Source: Candidatus Saccharimonadota bacterium
GTDB taxonomy: Bacteria; Patescibacteriota; Saccharimonadia; Saccharimonadales; Saccharimonadaceae
DNA length: 43,690 nt
NCBI GenBank assembly: GCA_017433245.1
Contig: JAFRHO010000011.1
Location: 1-43,690, forward strand
Direction of reading: 5' to 3'
Shown in pieces: positions 12,447 through 38,618 of the stretch. The translations under genes were made by a program, and so were the position numbers. The notes under the pieces are model-generated. The model ran no database searches, was not told the DNA's origin, and saw only the letters and a program-made list of their open reading frames with translations. Position 1 is the first letter of the stretch, and each line of letters begins with the position of its first letter.

Positions 12447-15075
12447 AAATATACTCAATTTGCTGTTTGAGATGAGCAATGAGTTTTTCTTTCTCTTTGA
12501 TTTGATTTTGGGTCTCCTTAACAAGGTGAGCCGGAGCCTTTTCGACATAATTCGGGTTCCTAAGACGAAGGTTGAGGGCGTCCAACTCGCGGCCGACTGA
12601 TAGGACGCGGTCGGTGAGGGTTTCTTTATACTCTTTGATGACTTTCTCAGGAGCGTCAAGATAGAGTTCGTGGTTGGCAAGAGCCAACCTGAGGCCTCTA
12701 GGAGTGCCATTAAGGGAATTAATAGTCGGTACCTTGCTGAGAACTTTAATAAGCATCTGGTTGTCCTGCACAAGGCTGTCATTGTCGTATAGTAGGCCGT
12801 ATTTTTTGCCGTTATTGGTGCCTCCTAGGGCTTGTAAGGTGCCTCTAGTCTCAGACACGATAATTCTTATGTTTTCAAAGCCCTCGGCGCTGATGGGGTC
12901 ATATTTGAGCCTGGCGGGCCACTTGGCCGTGGCAATGAAGCCGTCGGTCCAAGATAGATTCTGCCAAATCGCTTCAGTAACAAAAGGGGCAAAGGGGTGG
13001 AGGGCGATAAGGAGAGTCTCAAGTGTTTTCTTTAACAGGGGTACGTTCTTGTAAATTTTCTGAGATTCGAGAAACCAATCGGCATATTTGTCCCAGATGG
13101 TTTGATATAACGCGTCGACTGCTTCGGCGAAACGATAATTCTTCATATCTTTCTCAATTTGCTCTAAACAGTCGTTAATTTCGCGACAAATCCAGTCTTC
13201 GCCCATGTTCTCAGTGGTGTAGTCCGGTTTCGGAATGCTAACTTCTGATTCTTCTCCCCTATCCTCATCGACGAGGGATTGGATGAAGCGGGAGATGTTC
13301 CAGAGTTTGTTACAGAGATTGCGACCGCTAATAACAGAGTTCTCACTGAAAGCTTGGTTCATACCTGCGGAGCGACCACGGAGAATGCCGAGGCGGAAAG
13401 CGTCAGAGCCATACTTAGTGACGAGGTCCATTGGGTTAATGACGTTGCCCTTGGATTTGCTCATCTTCTGACCATGTGCATCGAGGACAAGACCGTGGAG
13501 GTAGACATCTTTGAATGGGACTTCTCCAGTGACATAGAGGCCCATCATAATCATTCTAGCAACCCAGGCAAAGAGGATGTCGGCACCAGTTTCCATGACA
13601 TTTAGAGGGTAATATGGGTTGAAGTTTTCTTCGGTCCAATCTGTGCAGACGATGGGCCAGTGAGAACTCGAGAACCAAGTATCGAATGTGTCTTCGTCGC
13701 GGACGTAGCGTACGCCGGCTTTTTCGATTTCCTTAAGATTGGTGCGGCGATCGAAAACCCAATCTGGTTCATCACTGGATTCGTAGTCTACTTGATGGAA
13801 CATCGGAATAGCAATACCCCAAGGGATTTGGCGAGATATATTCCAATCTTTTAGGTTTCCTAGGTAATTGATAAGAACTTTCTTCTTACTTTCAGGATGG
13901 AATTTGATTTCATCGTTCTCGAGGTGTTCGATGGCGACTTTGGCCAACTTCTCAACGTCGACAAACCACTGCTCTTTCAGAGTAGGTTCGAGGACGGTGC
14001 CACATTTGTAGCAGTGGGCTACAGAGTGGACGATTTTCTTCTCGCCCCTTAATAGCCCTTGCTCTTCGAGGTCTTTCAATACTTGCTTGCGACACTCAGC
14101 GGTGGTGAGGCCATAATACTTCTCGGGGACGTTAATCATCTTACCAGATTCAGAAATGACCTGAATACGTTCTAGGTTGTGGCGTTCGCCAACTTCGAAG
14201 TCATCGAAGTCATGAGCGGGCGTGATTTTTACGGCACCAGTACCATACTCGGGGTCAGCGTGCTCATCGGCGATGATGGGAATCTCGCGGTCTGTCAGAG
14301 GTAAGTGGACGGTTTTACCGATACGATCTTTGTAGCGTTTGTCCTCAGGGTTCACGGCTACAGCGACGTCGCCAAAAAGAGTCTCTGGCCTCGTGGTAGA
14401 GACAATAATGTCGTCGTAAGCGATGTCCCAGAGAGTGCCTTTTTCATCTTTATGTTCGACTTCGATATCAGCGAAAGCAGTCTGGTGCTTGGGGCAGAAG
14501 TTGACGAGTTTTTCACCGCGGTAAATCATACCGTCGTTCCACATTTTCTCGAATGTGGTGTAGACACGGTCGATGACGTTTTCGTCTAGAGTAAAGGTGA
14601 GGTCATCCCAAGAACAGGAGGCGCCGAGAGCACGGAGCTGAAGCTCCATATTGCCGCGTTGCTCAGCGACAAAATCCCAAACGCGAGCATAGAGTTCATT
14701 TCTGTCGAATTCGAAGCGGGTGTGGCCTTGAGCTTCGAGGTTACGTTCATAGACGACCCACGTTTCGAAGCCGGCGTGATCGGCGCCTGGAATATACCAG
14801 GTAGAAGCACCGCGTAGGCGGTAGTAGCGAACAAGAGAATCTTCGAGGGCAATAGTGAGGCCATGACCGATATGAAGGTTGCCGTTGGCGTTTGGTGGTG
14901 GCATAACGATTGAGTAAGTATCGGGATGGTTTTCTTCTAGCCTATCGTCCACGCCGTTACCGTCGTCGTCGACAGGGACAGTGGAGACAGTGGGCGCGAA
15001 AATGCCGCTAGCTTCCCATGCGGCGTAAATATCTGATTCGTATTCCCCCGGTTCGTAACTCGATGCAAATTTCAT
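12445..15075 (-). CDS. valS: valine-tRNA ligase
   Basis: ValRS charges tRNA-Val in the cytoplasm. The 876-aa class Ia synthetase has the HIGH motif in NANGNLHIGHGLTIALED, the CP1 editing domain (DDIIVSTTRPETLFGDVAVAVNP), FADIEVEHKDEKG, DTWFSSSHWP, KMSKS in DAHGQKMSKSKGNVINP, and the anticodon-binding domain. It closes with the ValRS-specific C-terminal coiled coil (from about residue 810). A short insertion near residue 35 (DDDGNGVDDRLEENHP) is Asp-rich, like a calcium-binding loop, and is unusual. The start at 15075 is preceded by AGAGGA about 10 nt upstream and a TATAAT at 15110-15115. Monocistronic. Confidence 0.97.
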   Translation of the reverse strand: MKFASSYEPGEYESDIYAAWEASGIFAPTVSTVPVDDDGNGVDDRLEENHPDTYSIVMPPPNANGNLHIGHGLTIALEDSLVRYYRLRGASTWYIPGADHAGFETWVVYERNLEAQGHTRFEFDRNELYARVWDFVAEQRGNMELQLRALGASCSWDDLTFTLDENVIDRVYTTFEKMWNDGMIYRGEKLVNFCPKHQTAFADIEVEHKDEKGTLWDIAYDDIIVSTTRPETLFGDVAVAVNPEDKRYKDRIGKTVHLPLTDREIPIIADEHADPEYGTGAVKITPAHDFDDFEVGERHNLERIQVISESGKMINVPEKYYGLTTAECRKQVLKDLEEQGLLRGEKKIVHSVAHCYKCGTVLEPTLKEQWFVDVEKLAKVAIEHLENDEIKFHPESKKKVLINYLGNLKDWNISRQIPWGIAIPMFHQVDYESSDEPDWVFDRRTNLKEIEKAGVRYVRDEDTFDTWFSSSHWPIVCTDWTEENFNPYYPLNVMETGADILFAWVARMIMMGLYVTGEVPFKDVYLHGLVLDAHGQKMSKSKGNVINPMDLVTKYGSDAFRLGILRGRSAGMNQAFSENSVISGRNLCNKLWNISRFIQSLVDEDRGEESEVSIPKPDYTTENMGEDWICREINDCLEQIEKDMKNYRFAEAVDALYQTIWDKYADWFLESQKIYKNVPLLKKTLETLLIALHPFAPFVTEAIWQNLSWTDGFIATAKWPARLKYDPISAEGFENIRIIVSETRGTLQALGGTNNGKKYGLLYDNDSLVQDNQMLIKVLSKVPTINSLNGTPRGLRLALANHELYLDAPEKVIKEYKETLTDRVLSVGRELDALNLRLRNPNYVEKAPAHLVKETQNQIKEKEKLIAHLKQQIEYI

Positions 15076-29418: not shown

Positions 29419-31158
29419 ATGAACAAGGCCATACGATTATTATTTCTTATCACTATATTTAGTGGTATAGCATTATCTTCTTCTATTGTCTCTGCTAATG
29501 ACAATACTAGTGTAGTAGACGAAATAAACATAACAGTCCCAGTATCATGTACTATTTCTGGTACAGGAATGAATACACATAATGCTAATATCAATAATGG
29601 ACTATATGAAGATGATATAGGTACAACTACTCTACATGCATTCTGTAATGATAATGAAGGATTCGCTATATATGCAGCAGGATATACAGGAAATGAAGTA
29701 GGAGGAGAGAATAGTAATAAACTAGTAGGAACAAATGCTAGTAATAATGCAACTATAGAGTCTGGCACTGCTACAACTGCTGGTAATCCTGATATATCTA
29801 ACTGGGCGATGAAACTACAAATAACACAAGATTCTGGTGATACAACTGGCACTAATGCTTTTACGATTGACTCTGCTCCTAATGTATCACTTCCTAGTCA
29901 AGCAGAACAATCTGCTACTAGTACACCATTCTCGCAATACCATGTAGTACCAAATGAATATACTAAAGTTGCTCATAAGAACTCAAATACTGATATGACA
30001 GAATCTACTGGTGGAGTCAAACTTACTACTACCTATGCTGCTTACATTTCTAAGACTCAGGCTGCTGATACATACAGTGGGCAAGTTATCTATACATTAG
30101 TCCATCCAGCATCTGCTTCGGCTCCAGCAGCTCCAGTCAGTTGCAATCCAACAGGCACTACAATAGGTACTAATTCCGGTACTGATATCAAATGTATGCA
30201 AGATATTACATCTACTAACAAATCTACTGTATTAGCATCTATGACTGAAGGGACTCAGTATACACTCAAAGATAAACGTGATGGTAAAGAATACAAGATT
30301 GCTAAACTAGCTGATGGTAAAGTATGGATGACTCAAAACTTAGACTTAGATATAGACTCTTCTAAAACCTATACCAACGAAGATACAGACCTTGGCTGGA
30401 ACACATCTACTAACCAATATGATACTGCTAGCTGGAGCCCAACCCGCTCTACTTACACCACTGTTACTAATAACATTCACGAGTGGTGTCAAGGTGGAAC
30501 TTGGAACTCTGAGTATGGCTACTGTGAACAAAACCATACTCCGGAATCCTATGACCCGGGAGACCTTTACTGGAACACTGAAATTAGTGACGGGTCAGAC
30601 TGGTACGCATATTTGAATTCCTGCAACGATTCCACCACTACTCCATCTTGTAATGAATCACTTAATCCACTTTCAACCTACACATCCAGTACTGGCGCAG
30701 CACAATATTATCTAGGTAACTACTACAACTGGGCTGCCGCCATTGCCTCAAACAATGCAAGTATCTACGGCGTATATAATGAGAATACCGGTGAATACGA
30801 GAGCCTAGAAACCCATCAATCCATCTGTCCGGCTGGCTGGACTCTGCCATATGCAACTTACAACAACAATACATACCAAAGCGAAGGTGATTTTGCCGAC
30901 CTATGGACTGAATATGGCTGGACAGATAATGATAGTTTTAACGATATATCTACTGTCTGGTCAGCTCCGCTCTACTTCACCCCCGCCGGCTCCTTCGGCG
31001 GTATCCTCGGGGATGTTGGGCGCAACGGCTACTTCTGGTCCTCCGTTGCGGTCAATGGCCTCGATGCCTACAGCGCGTACTTCGATGTGGATAACAACGC
31101 CTACCCAAGCTACAACAATCGCAGTAGTGGCACGTCGGTCCGATGCCTGCTCCGCTAG
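29419..31158 (+). CDS. secreted surface protein with FISUMP domain, copy 1
   Basis: The 579-aa protein has a signal peptide (about 1-26), a beta-rich N-terminal domain (about 30-230, ending ADTYSGQVIYTLVHP) shared with copy 2, a Ser/Ala/Pro linker, and a C-terminal Fibrobacter succinogenes major paralogous (FISUMP) domain. The FISUMP landmarks are YTLKDKRDGKEYKIAKLADGKVWMTQNLDL (about 281-310), SICPAGWTLP (about 468-477), GYFWSS (about 537) and GTSVRCLLR at the end. Adhesion or host contact is likely but unproven. The start is set by the promoter 6 nt upstream. The coding strand is poor in G, unlike its neighbours, and the last ~200 nt switch to GC-rich, NNY-codon sequence. Confidence 0.88.
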   Translation: MNKAIRLLFLITIFSGIALSSSIVSANDNTSVVDEINITVPVSCTISGTGMNTHNANINNGLYEDDIGTTTLHAFCNDNEGFAIYAAGYTGNEVGGENSNKLVGTNASNNATIESGTATTAGNPDISNWAMKLQITQDSGDTTGTNAFTIDSAPNVSLPSQAEQSATSTPFSQYHVVPNEYTKVAHKNSNTDMTESTGGVKLTTTYAAYISKTQAADTYSGQVIYTLVHPASASAPAAPVSCNPTGTTIGTNSGTDIKCMQDITSTNKSTVLASMTEGTQYTLKDKRDGKEYKIAKLADGKVWMTQNLDLDIDSSKTYTNEDTDLGWNTSTNQYDTASWSPTRSTYTTVTNNIHEWCQGGTWNSEYGYCEQNHTPESYDPGDLYWNTEISDGSDWYAYLNSCNDSTTTPSCNESLNPLSTYTSSTGAAQYYLGNYYNWAAAIASNNASIYGVYNENTGEYESLETHQSICPAGWTLPYATYNNNTYQSEGDFADLWTEYGWTDNDSFNDISTVWSAPLYFTPAGSFGGILGDVGRNGYFWSSVAVNGLDAYSAYFDVDNNAYPSYNNRSSGTSVRCLLR

Positions 31159-33559: not shown

Positions 33560-35218
33560 ATGCAAAATAAAAAGTGTAAGTATATATTTGTAACTGGTGG
33601 GGTGCTATCGGGGGTCGGTAAAGGAATTACGGCGGCCTCAATCGGAGCGATACTGAAAGCGAAAGGTTATAAAGTAACGATGCAAAAATGTGACCCGTAT
33701 CTCAATGTAGATGCGGGTCTTTTGAATCCGGTGGAACATGGGGAATGTTTCGTGACGCATGATGGAGTGGAGACGGACTTGGACCTCGGGCACTATGAGA
33801 GGTTTTTGGATTTTGAGACATCGAAATACTCGATTACTCTGAGTGGTTCGATATATAAAGAATTGATTGAGCGTGAACGAGCGGGAGGGTTCCATGGGAA
33901 GACGGTGCAGCTGGTGCCGCATTTTACGGGACTGGTGTGTGAAAAGATTGAAAAGGCCTCGGCGGAGTCAGATATCCATATTGTGGAGATAGGTGGAACG
34001 GTGGGAGATTACGAGGGATTGCCGTTTGTGGAGGCGATTCGATTGTTTGCCAATAAAGTGGGACGACGGAATTGTCTTTATGTGTCGGTGGTATATGTGC
34101 CATTTATTCATACATCGAACGAATTAAAAACCAAGCCAGCACAGAATGCTTTGAAGGATCTTCGTGGGTTTGGGATAATTCCGGATGTGGTGTGCGTGAG
34201 GACGGAGGAGCCGTGCCCGAGGGAGATTTGTGAGAAGATTGCGGCGTTTTCGGGAATTTCGTCTGACGCAGTGGTGAATTTGCCAGATATTAATTCGGTT
34301 TATGATGTACCGTTTAACGTGTTGAAGTCGGGAGTGCTTGCGATTTTGAATGATTTTGTGGGGGATGTGTCCGAGCCGGATATGAATCGATGGTTGGAGT
34401 TTTCGCGGAGACGAGCAAAGGAATATGCGAAGACGGTGCGGATAGGGCTAGTGGCGAAATACGTGGGGAATGATGATACATATATGTGTGTGACAGAGGC
34501 ACTCAAAGCGGCTGCTGCTTGGGATAAAGTAAATCTAGAGCTTAAGTGGGTAAATGCGGAAGAAGTTGAGAAAAACGTAGGATTACTAAAGGGATTAGAC
34601 GGAATTGTGGTGCCGGGAGGGTTTGGTGCGAGAGGAGTAGAGGGGAAGATTCGGGCGGCGAAGTATGCGCTGGAACATGATGTGCCGTATTTGGGACTAT
34701 GTTTAGGATTACAGGTGGCTTGCATTGCGGCGGCGCGTCGGGGTGGCGTGAAGGATGCAAATTCGGAAGAGTTTGGGGCGAACGAGAAGGATGCGAACAA
34801 TGTGATATATATAATGGAAGGGCAAAAAGGGAAGGAGTCGACAGGTGGGACGATGCGGCTAGGAGATTATAAGGCGGTGCTGAAGTCTAAGACAAAGGTT
34901 GCGAAGCTTTATCGTAAGGCGGCGGAAAATGGTGAGTATAAATACGGGACGGAGACACTGGAGGATGGTGAAGTAGAGGTGATTGAGCGACACCGGCATC
35001 GTTATGAAGTGAATCAGAGATTTTTGGACGAGATTAGGGCTGGTGGAGTGGAAGTGTCGGGATTATCACCGGACGGAAAGTTGGTAGAATATGTGGAGGC
35101 ACCTTTGTGTCGGTTTTTTGTGGCTACGCAAGCGCATCCAGAGTTCAAATCTAGGCCGCTACATCCGCATCCTTTGTTCAGAGGGTTTGTAAAAGCAGCA
35201 GGAAGCGTAAAAAAATAA
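33560..35218 (+). CDS. pyrG: CTP synthase
   Basis: PyrG aminates UTP to CTP with glutamine and ATP. The 552-aa protein has the synthetase domain (KYIFVTGGVLSGVGKGITAASIG, then DPYLNVDAGLLNPVEHGECFV and DLDLGHYERF) and the class I glutaminase domain with the nucleophile in YLGLCLGLQVA and HPEF near the end. The ATG at 33560 is chosen over upstream in-frame codons because AAGGAGG lies 6 nt before it. Full-length and apparently functional; glutaminase Cys, His and Glu are present. Confidence 0.98.
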   Translation: MQNKKCKYIFVTGGVLSGVGKGITAASIGAILKAKGYKVTMQKCDPYLNVDAGLLNPVEHGECFVTHDGVETDLDLGHYERFLDFETSKYSITLSGSIYKELIERERAGGFHGKTVQLVPHFTGLVCEKIEKASAESDIHIVEIGGTVGDYEGLPFVEAIRLFANKVGRRNCLYVSVVYVPFIHTSNELKTKPAQNALKDLRGFGIIPDVVCVRTEEPCPREICEKIAAFSGISSDAVVNLPDINSVYDVPFNVLKSGVLAILNDFVGDVSEPDMNRWLEFSRRRAKEYAKTVRIGLVAKYVGNDDTYMCVTEALKAAAAWDKVNLELKWVNAEEVEKNVGLLKGLDGIVVPGGFGARGVEGKIRAAKYALEHDVPYLGLCLGLQVACIAAARRGGVKDANSEEFGANEKDANNVIYIMEGQKGKESTGGTMRLGDYKAVLKSKTKVAKLYRKAAENGEYKYGTETLEDGEVEVIERHRHRYEVNQRFLDEIRAGGVEVSGLSPDGKLVEYVEAPLCRFFVATQAHPEFKSRPLHPHPLFRGFVKAAGSVKK

Positions 35219-35234
35219 GCCCTTGTGGGCTTAT
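35215..35234. terminator. terminator shared by pyrG and the basic peptide gene
   Basis: ATAAGCCC and GGGCTTAT pair around TTGT. On the minus strand the stem is followed by a run of seven T, an ideal terminator for the 34-aa gene. On the plus strand the tail is not T-rich, and the stem includes the pyrG stop codon. Confidence 0.85.
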
Positions 35235-35235
35235 G

Positions 35236-35340
35236 CTAGCGGCCGTTTTTCAAACGAGGATGTTTGCGTTTGTCGCTGTGCTTGTGATTGTTGTTGCGGT
35301 TCTGTTTCGCAACGATTTTCATTTTGAATTTTCTTGCCAT
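35236..35340 (-). CDS. 34-aa highly basic peptide
   Basis: A complete small gene lies between pyrG and tRNA-Ser(TGA). The reverse strand has TGGTATAAT, six bases, then ATG at 35340, 34 codons and TAG, followed immediately by a T-tailed hairpin. The peptide starts MARKFKMKIVAKQNRNNN and is rich in Lys, Arg, His and Asn, with no acidic residue except one Asp. The composition suggests an RNA-binding or ribosome-associated protein, but it does not match bL34, bL36, bTHX or the Cox24-like family as I know them. Promoter, start, stop and terminator together are strong evidence that it is real. Function unknown. Confidence 0.75.
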   Translation of the reverse strand: MARKFKMKIVAKQNRNNNHKHSDKRKHPRLKNGR

Positions 35341-35346
35341 GGGGTT

Positions 35347-35355
35347 ATTATACCA
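35347..35355 (-). promoter_or_regulatory. leaderless promoter of the basic peptide gene
   Basis: The reverse strand TGGTATAAT has its hexamer at 35347-35352, six bases before the ATG at 35340. Confidence 0.7.
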
Positions 35356-35386: not shown

Positions 35387-35472
35387 GGAAGGGTGGCCGA
35401 GTGGTTGATGGCACTGGTCTTGAAAACCAGCAGATTAACGTCTCGCAGGTTCGAATCCTGTCCCTTCCGCCA
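35387..35472 (+). tRNA. tRNA-Ser(TGA), CCA encoded
   Basis: Acceptor GGAAGGG/CCCTTCC, D-arm TGGCCGAGTGGTTGATGGC, anticodon stem CTGGT/ACCAG with loop CTTGAAA (anticodon TGA), variable arm, T-arm GGTTCGAATCC, discriminator G and CCA. Decodes UCA. Confidence 0.97.
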
Positions 35473-36964: not shown

Positions 36965-36988
36965 TTAGAACCTCCTTGTTATTTTATT

Positions 36989-36997
36989 ATTATAGCA
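36989..36997 (-). promoter_or_regulatory. promoter of the DUF1846 gene
   Basis: The reverse strand TGCTATAAT with hexamer 36989-36994 gives a short leader with AAGGAGG. Confidence 0.6.
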
Positions 36998-37050
36998 TGG
37001 GTTGGATGTTGGTGCGTGGGAGTATGTATAATATTCACGCATACATTTTC

Positions 37051-37078
37051 TTGACATGAGCAAAACCATCTATATAAT
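37051..37078 (+). promoter_or_regulatory. -35/-10 promoter of FISUMP gene 2
   Basis: TTGACA (37051-37056), a 16-nt spacer and TATAAT (37073-37078) form a near-perfect promoter. The ATG at 37086 is only seven bases further on, so the message should be leaderless. Confidence 0.8.
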
Positions 37079-37085
37079 TGTAAAC

Positions 37086-38618
37086 ATGAGTATTATGCAT
37101 AAAACTAAACTAATTATGCTATTATTAACTATAACTCTGCTTAGCGGTATAACTCTTGCTTCTACTAAAGCCTCTGCCGATACCGATTCCACTGATACGA
37201 TTAGCCTCACTGTCCCCATCGCTTGTACCATGACTGGTGAGAATACTTCTCATACTGCTACATTGGATCCTGGTACTTATTCTGGAGCAACTGGCAGTGA
37301 ATATGAAAACGGTATTGGCAAAACTACTCTCACTGCCATATGTAATGACGATAATGGCTTTTCCATTTATGCTATAGGATATACTAGTAATCAATATGAA
37401 GGAGAAAACCATACCAAGCTCATAGGGCAATCCACTAATAGCGCCATAGCTACTAAAGCCTATGCCTCAGGAGACACTACTTCCAACTGGTCCATGAAAC
37501 TAATCAAGATTACAGACGCTACTGTATCCTATAATCCACAAAACCTTACTATTCAAAGTGACACAGAAGGCACCTTTAGCAATTGGCACAGTGTACCAGA
37601 CACTTATACTAAAGTAGCAGAATATCACGCCAACACTGGTTCCTCTACCACAGACACCACTCTCGGTGTTAAACTAGAGACTACCTATGCCGCCTACATC
37701 TCATCTTCTCAACCAGCAGATACTTATGTAGGGCAAGTTAAATATACTATGGTACATCCATATGATGCTGCTGCGCCAGAAGGGCCTATGGGGCTATGTC
37801 AAGACAGCGATACTTGCATGCAACAACAAACCACTGCTTCGCTAGTGCTGAAACTTCCAAATGTGGGCGATACTACTACACTCTATGATGCCCGTGACAA
37901 CCAAGCCTACACCGTAGCTAAACTTGCCGATGGTAAATATTGGATGACTGAGAATCTCAATATAGCTGGTGGTACTGCACTTTCTAGTGAAGACACTGAC
38001 TTTGAATCAACTTATACTCTACCTACTACCAATGGCTGGACAGCGACGGATGGTAAGTTAGTCCTCCCAGCCTCAAGTATTTCAGGCTTCTCTAATAACA
38101 ATTATGCTTATGTTTATAATTCCGGTAATAAGACTAGTAATTGTTCTTCTTCTTCTGATTGTTATTCCTACTACTCCTGGGATGCAGCTACACTAGGCTC
38201 AGGTAGAGCTATAGCCGCAGAAAACACTGATGCGCCATATAGTATTTGCCCGAAGAACTGGAGATTGCCGACATCTGGTGCAACATCTAGCGAAGGTTGG
38301 AAACGTGGCGACTTTCACACACTAGCTACTAACTATGGTGCTAATCTAGAAAGCGATTACAAAGATTCGTCATCGGCTACTGGTGCAAATTTCTATAACA
38401 ACGCAGGTTCTGGCACTACGCCAAACTTTCTGCTCGCTGGCTACTACTACAGTCGGGTGTTCACCAATGGTGGTAGCAACGGCTACTACTGGTCGTCTAC
38501 TTCCACCTCTAATTCGTCGAACGCTCGCTACTTGTTCTTCAGTTCGAGTTACGTCAATTCAGCCAATGGCGACGGTCGCAAGGGCGGCTACTCGGTCCGA
38601 TGCTTGTTCGGCTCCTAG
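37086..38618 (+). CDS. secreted surface protein with FISUMP domain, copy 2
   Basis: The 510-aa paralogue of the protein at 29419-31158 has a signal peptide (to about residue 31), the shared beta-rich domain (TISLTVPIACTMT to ADTYVGQVKYTMVHP, about 38-225), then FISUMP landmarks: TLYDARDNQAYTVAKLADGKYWMTENLNI (about 265-293), YSICPKNWRLPTSG (about 385-398), GYYWSS (about 466) and GYSVRCLFGS at the end. A frame open to 37056 is rejected because it crosses the TTGACA/TATAAT promoter. As in copy 1, codons near the 3' end (from about 38400) become GC-rich and mostly NNY. The coding strand is also low in G. Probably an exposed adhesin-like protein. Confidence 0.88.
   Translation: MSIMHKTKLIMLLLTITLLSGITLASTKASADTDSTDTISLTVPIACTMTGENTSHTATLDPGTYSGATGSEYENGIGKTTLTAICNDDNGFSIYAIGYTSNQYEGENHTKLIGQSTNSAIATKAYASGDTTSNWSMKLIKITDATVSYNPQNLTIQSDTEGTFSNWHSVPDTYTKVAEYHANTGSSTTDTTLGVKLETTYAAYISSSQPADTYVGQVKYTMVHPYDAAAPEGPMGLCQDSDTCMQQQTTASLVLKLPNVGDTTTLYDARDNQAYTVAKLADGKYWMTENLNIAGGTALSSEDTDFESTYTLPTTNGWTATDGKLVLPASSISGFSNNNYAYVYNSGNKTSNCSSSSDCYSYYSWDAATLGSGRAIAAENTDAPYSICPKNWRLPTSGATSSEGWKRGDFHTLATNYGANLESDYKDSSSATGANFYNNAGSGTTPNFLLAGYYYSRVFTNGGSNGYYWSSTSTSNSSNARYLFFSSSYVNSANGDGRKGGYSVRCLFGS

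Follow-up and report, generated by a model that had tools for sequence, protein, structure and literature searches.

Ribosomes of the CPR bacteria have been described mainly through their losses. The described systems closest to the locus analyzed here are three very short, basic ribosomal proteins and the tail of a fourth one. bL37, a 24-aa protein found only in actinobacteria, had been overlooked by annotation and was discovered only as an unassigned density, occupying a pocket of the rRNA, in cryo-EM data (PMC5876184, PDB 5o60). It occurs in mycobacteria, a group in which leaderless mRNAs are frequent, too. bTHX is known as the 26-aa Thx protein of Thermus and as organellar bTHX, and bS22 is a mycobacterial protein of 33 aa (mS38/AURKAIP1 domain). 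In bL32, the loss of which has been reported in some CPR lineages (PMC9698310), it is the basic N-terminal tail that penetrates the rRNA of known ribosomes.

The window (the whole stretch of 43,690 nucleotides of contig JAFRHO010000011.1, from a Candidatus Saccharimonadota bacterium) contains a micro-gene for a protein that resembles all of these in some respects. Like bL37 it is short, basic and restricted to one lineage; with bTHX it shares the size class, the charge and the lack of a hydrophobic core, with bS22 the length and the basic character, and with the bL32 tail the basic character. Direct comparison with bL37, bTHX, bS22 and bL32 was, however, negative. There is no profile similarity to bL37 (hhalign probability 0.3%), and the ribosomal location of the micro-protein is presumptive. 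No sequence similarity to bTHX is seen, the micro-protein being devoid of the Gly/Arg/Tyr pattern and having an Asn/His-rich core; there is no match to the bS22/DUF1713 profile, and bS22 is Arg/Lys-rich, without an Asn run; and there is no significant similarity to bL32 and no PF01783 match, the zinc ribbon being absent. On our best reading the micro-protein would be comparable in kind to bL37 and bTHX, while unrelated to them by sequence. The locus comprises the following features:

35347..35355, minus strand: extended -10 promoter element TGGTATAAT, with the predicted transcription start at or adjoining the ATG
35236..35340, minus strand: micro-gene, encoding the 34-aa basic protein MARKFKMKIVAKQNRNNNHKHSDKRKHPRLKNGR, with its stop codon
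35254..35298, minus strand: nearly invariant core codons, residues 15-29, R-N-N-N-H-K-H-S-x-K-R-[KQ]-H and the next residues
35209..35232, minus strand: intrinsic terminator, an AAGCCC-ACAA-GGGCTT stem-loop followed by A and T7
35387..35472, plus strand: tRNA-Ser(UGA), divergent from the micro-gene

The first-pass annotation had described a complete micro-gene of 34 codons on the minus strand, and all its parts were found, in the order TGGTATAAT, AACCCC, ATG (35340), 34 codons, TAG (35238-35236), stem and T7 from 35355 to 35209. Its extent of 35215-35355 was right except at one end, as the T7 occupies 35215-35209 and thus reaches just beyond it. Folding of the hairpin is better than that of dinucleotide shuffles (z -2.8), and since the convergent pyrG frame runs to 35218, its last nucleotides form part of the terminator. 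The peptide is basic, as had been noted, and contains five Asn residues, with a Lys/Arg/His share (16 of the 34 residues, 47%) slightly higher than the roughly 40% initially given. The supposed promoter rule of the window is also real: exact TATAAT 6-7 nt 5' of the ATG accompanies 12 of the 248 ATGs heading frames of 100 codons or more, compared with one of the 397 heading frames of 20-59 codons, which is the micro-gene itself. One basic micro-ORF (defined as 20-60 aa with at least 35% Lys/Arg/His) with a TATAAT promoter is present in the window, versus none in 60 first-order Markov simulations.

A first pass with tblastn revealed homologs in 30 of 60 relatives, nearly all from the genus of the window. 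A subsequent scan of GTDB contigs, which demanded RNNNHKHS, identified 169 places encoding a relative of the micro-protein, of which 80 loci were kept for locus analyses. These are records of Saccharibacteria, with one whose title reads only 'uncultured bacterium'; many come from ruminant gut, and Candidatus Nanosyncoccus alces (record NZ_PRLM01000003) is included. Orthologs range in length from 26 aa (MAKKVRIAKLNRNNNHKHSEKRKHLD), with the C-terminal tail missing, to 38 aa (genus g42); the N-terminus is free, and the columns R15-S22, K24 and R25 are invariant in the alignment, which corresponds to the run RNNNHKHS-x-KR. Over the 80 loci pN/pS is 0.11, far below 1, so that the conserved frame and the codon-level constraint on which the initial proposal had been made to depend were both found. 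Because the scan had demanded RNNNHKHS, we recomputed pN/pS without these eight codons and obtained 0.16, with 0.07 for codons 23-34 and 0.43 for the loosely conserved N-terminus. The third position is variable in 32 of the 34 codons and the second position in 11. The micro-gene is real, conserved, protein-coding and under strong purifying selection.

Neither Pfam, NCBIfam, PHROGs nor the sequences in PDB contain a match to the micro-protein, and the latter include no detectably similar ribosomal protein of known structure, in agreement with the initial statement that no known small ribosomal protein was recognized in it. The best Pfam score (E 0.007) was obtained by a single member only, against an unrelated DUF. 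When 245 genomes of the family were searched with a profile, the micro-gene turned up in about 84 of the 104 near-complete genomes that belong to the window's genus, in all 21 genomes of genus g32 and in both genomes of genus g42, while the other 39 genera gave chance-level scores only. Nothing significant was added by 247 genomes of the order or 380 of the phylum, with no confident match elsewhere, and phages and viral contigs yielded no match either. The family is new and its range is very narrow. One genome (G203) contains two copies (L150, L216), and the same is seen in G752.

In genomes of the window's genus that gave no match, we found no convincing divergent copy of the micro-gene near pilB. 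Such genomes cluster on the PilB tree (7 label changes, versus 17.7 in shuffles), which argues for several real losses rather than for assembly gaps alone, though two isolated cases may be gaps. As several clades appear to have lost the gene, the micro-protein is dispensable. Universal presence in the lineage, as for a ribosomal protein, was not found, given that about 20 of the 104 near-complete genomes of the genus and the 39 other genera are without the gene; with such a gap within the genus, it is not a core ribosomal protein.

In 58 of the 80 relatives an exact TATAAT with zero mismatch lies precisely 6 nt 5' of the ATG, and in 74 such a box with up to one mismatch lies within 11 nt, while a Shine-Dalgarno-like site is present in none of the 80 relatives of the window's genus. 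The sequence thus displays both marks of a leaderless gene, a -10 box about 6 nt 5' of the ATG and no Shine-Dalgarno site, and the mRNA is probably leaderless. A T-run follows the stop within 80 nt in 78 of the 80. The micro-gene of this genus is a single-gene unit; in a few loci it sits behind a tRNA gene instead. Conservation of its position beside pyrG, which had been suggested initially as a check, did not hold up, as just 3 of the 80 relatives have the pyrG cluster for an immediate neighbor. In 54 of the 80 loci tRNA-Ser(UGA) is no farther than 1.5 kb away (divergent, upstream or downstream), other tRNA genes are often among the neighbors, and so are a pilB-like ATPase gene (divergent or facing) and a yebC-like gene, both names having been assigned by reading the sequences. 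Separately, codons 2-3 of the micro-gene, GCA AGA (35332-35337 in the window), are nearly fixed at the nucleotide level (79/81 and 81/81), unlike elsewhere in the micro-gene, where Arg is mostly CGC; they perhaps serve as a start signal on a leaderless mRNA.

A different arrangement was found in g32. In 12 of its 21 genomes the ATG follows the stop codon of bL31 (rpmE, encoding MKKSIQPKDYxFVVFADEQA...) by 2-24 nt, so that the micro-gene is the second and last gene, and a Shine-Dalgarno-like site is always present at these 12; in three further genomes bL31 lies 67-873 nt upstream. Location in a ribosomal protein operon, directly 3' of bL31, is therefore seen in g32 and not in the window's genus, and in other genera nothing similar follows bL31 at any of the 29 loci, out of 30 fetched, that could be read. 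That one and the same protein core is retained although translation starts in two different ways argues strongly for the protein as the product. The operon probably goes back to one relocation event, for which reason we rate its support for a ribosomal role, taken by itself, as moderate. It backs the initial suggestion of a new ribosome- or RNA-associated protein as to the link with the ribosome, the binding itself being presumptive.

Taken together, the charge, the invariant core, the absence of a fold, the operon with bL31 and bL37 as a precedent make the micro-protein a candidate for a ribosomal or rRNA-binding role, which the tRNA genes often found as its other neighbors also favor, and we consider, with moderate confidence, that this lineage-restricted protein is most likely a small accessory ribosomal (rRNA-binding) protein. 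AlphaFold2 predicted no fold (pLDDT 64, pTM 0.14), as expected of a chain that would need rRNA to fold. We envisage that the unstructured chain, rich in Lys, Arg, His and Asn, would fold only on threading into an rRNA pocket, in the manner of bTHX and bL37, and could thereby stabilize the simplified ribosome of Saccharibacteria. The codon usage of the micro-gene is unlike that of the ribosomal protein operon and gives no sign of ribosomal protein-like expression. The more specific proposal, namely a new ribosomal protein of 26-38 aa that is confined to three genera of this Saccharimonadales family and fills an rRNA pocket in a ribosome lacking bL32 and other components, appears to us about evenly balanced. 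If it is true, the 26-aa forms would be among the smallest bacterial ribosomal proteins and the micro-protein would represent a lineage-specific gain in the CPR ribosome. Genes of this size escape gene finders whose lower length limit is set close to 30 codons; the micro-gene can serve as a marker for micro-genes of the leaderless type in these genomes, and its product is a ready candidate for unassigned density in maps of Saccharibacterial ribosomes.

A different function for such a chain, for example that of a chaperone binding tRNA or mRNA or of a protamine-like peptide compacting DNA, would place it among non-ribosomal RNA-binding or nucleoid peptides, which we consider rather unlikely. 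The abundance of Lys, Arg and His without a fold of its own would suit such a peptide, and so would tRNA-Ser(UGA) as a frequent neighbor in the genus of the window, though this neighborhood may be mere history. Protamine-like peptides, however, keep their charge and not an exact run, while here 10-11 residues are invariant with synonymous sites nearly saturated, and the bL31 operon of g32 suits the ribosome better.

Quite improbable, in our view, is that the micro-protein is a relict of bL32, i.e. the rRNA-penetrating N-terminal tail left after loss of the zinc ribbon. None of the 20 family (f1) genomes examined, carriers and non-carriers alike, gave a PF01783 match, while control genomes do match, in agreement with the loss reported for some CPR lineages; every genome tested has bL31, bL33, bL34 and bL36, and bS21 was found in 24 of 26, often with weak scores (it was not found in G000 and G172). 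A replacement of missing bL31, bL33, bL34 or bL36 by the micro-protein was rejected, all four being present. An overlay of the core V-[SA]-K-[QL]-N-R-N-N-N-H-K-H on the bL32 tail T-S-K-T-R-K-N-K-R-R-T-H is possible, but profile comparison finds nothing, and the ungapped score of 19.9 against bL32 is no better than those against bL37, bS22 and other ribosomal proteins among the ten proteins compared. Besides, genera without the micro-protein also lack bL32, so that there is no co-occurrence and the two are not coupled.

Saccharibacteria live on other bacteria, and a cationic peptide of such an epibiont might be secreted or directed at the host. We hold this to be very improbable for the micro-protein, as no signal peptide is visible in its sequence, no transporter or processing gene is its steady neighbor, the operon in g32 is linked to translation, and the invariance of the core is unlike the fast change of secreted peptides. 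Still less credence can be given to a leader peptide or regulatory attenuator based on Asn, His and Lys codons, without a working protein: the frame is indeed very short and followed directly by a terminator, but the downstream gene varies among the relatives and is often on the opposite strand (80 loci), which speaks against a leader peptide, the micro-gene is last after bL31 in g32, and conservation concerns the amino acids and not the codons. A structured RNA or a chance open frame, to which the low variability of some third positions (AGC of Ser22, AGA of Arg3) might point, is refuted by the codon-level evidence, with pN/pS far below 1 and the protein core constant under both start modes, and by the coding part having no conserved RNA structure (3 pairs, no compensatory change) and no Rfam match.

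Elsewhere in the window, TATAAT 6-7 nt 5' of the ATG is seen at about a dozen long genes on both strands, which suggests that leaderless mRNAs are common in this genome. A second 34-aa frame (36965-37069, minus strand), less basic than the micro-protein, has TACAAT 7 nt 5' of its ATG. Several large secreted-looking proteins are encoded at 37056-38618 and 29419-31158 on the plus strand of the window and at 12487-14391 on the minus strand of locus L264; they share an N-terminal pattern, a signal-like start followed by ITVPVSCT or LTVPIACT, and form a repeated family of surface proteins.
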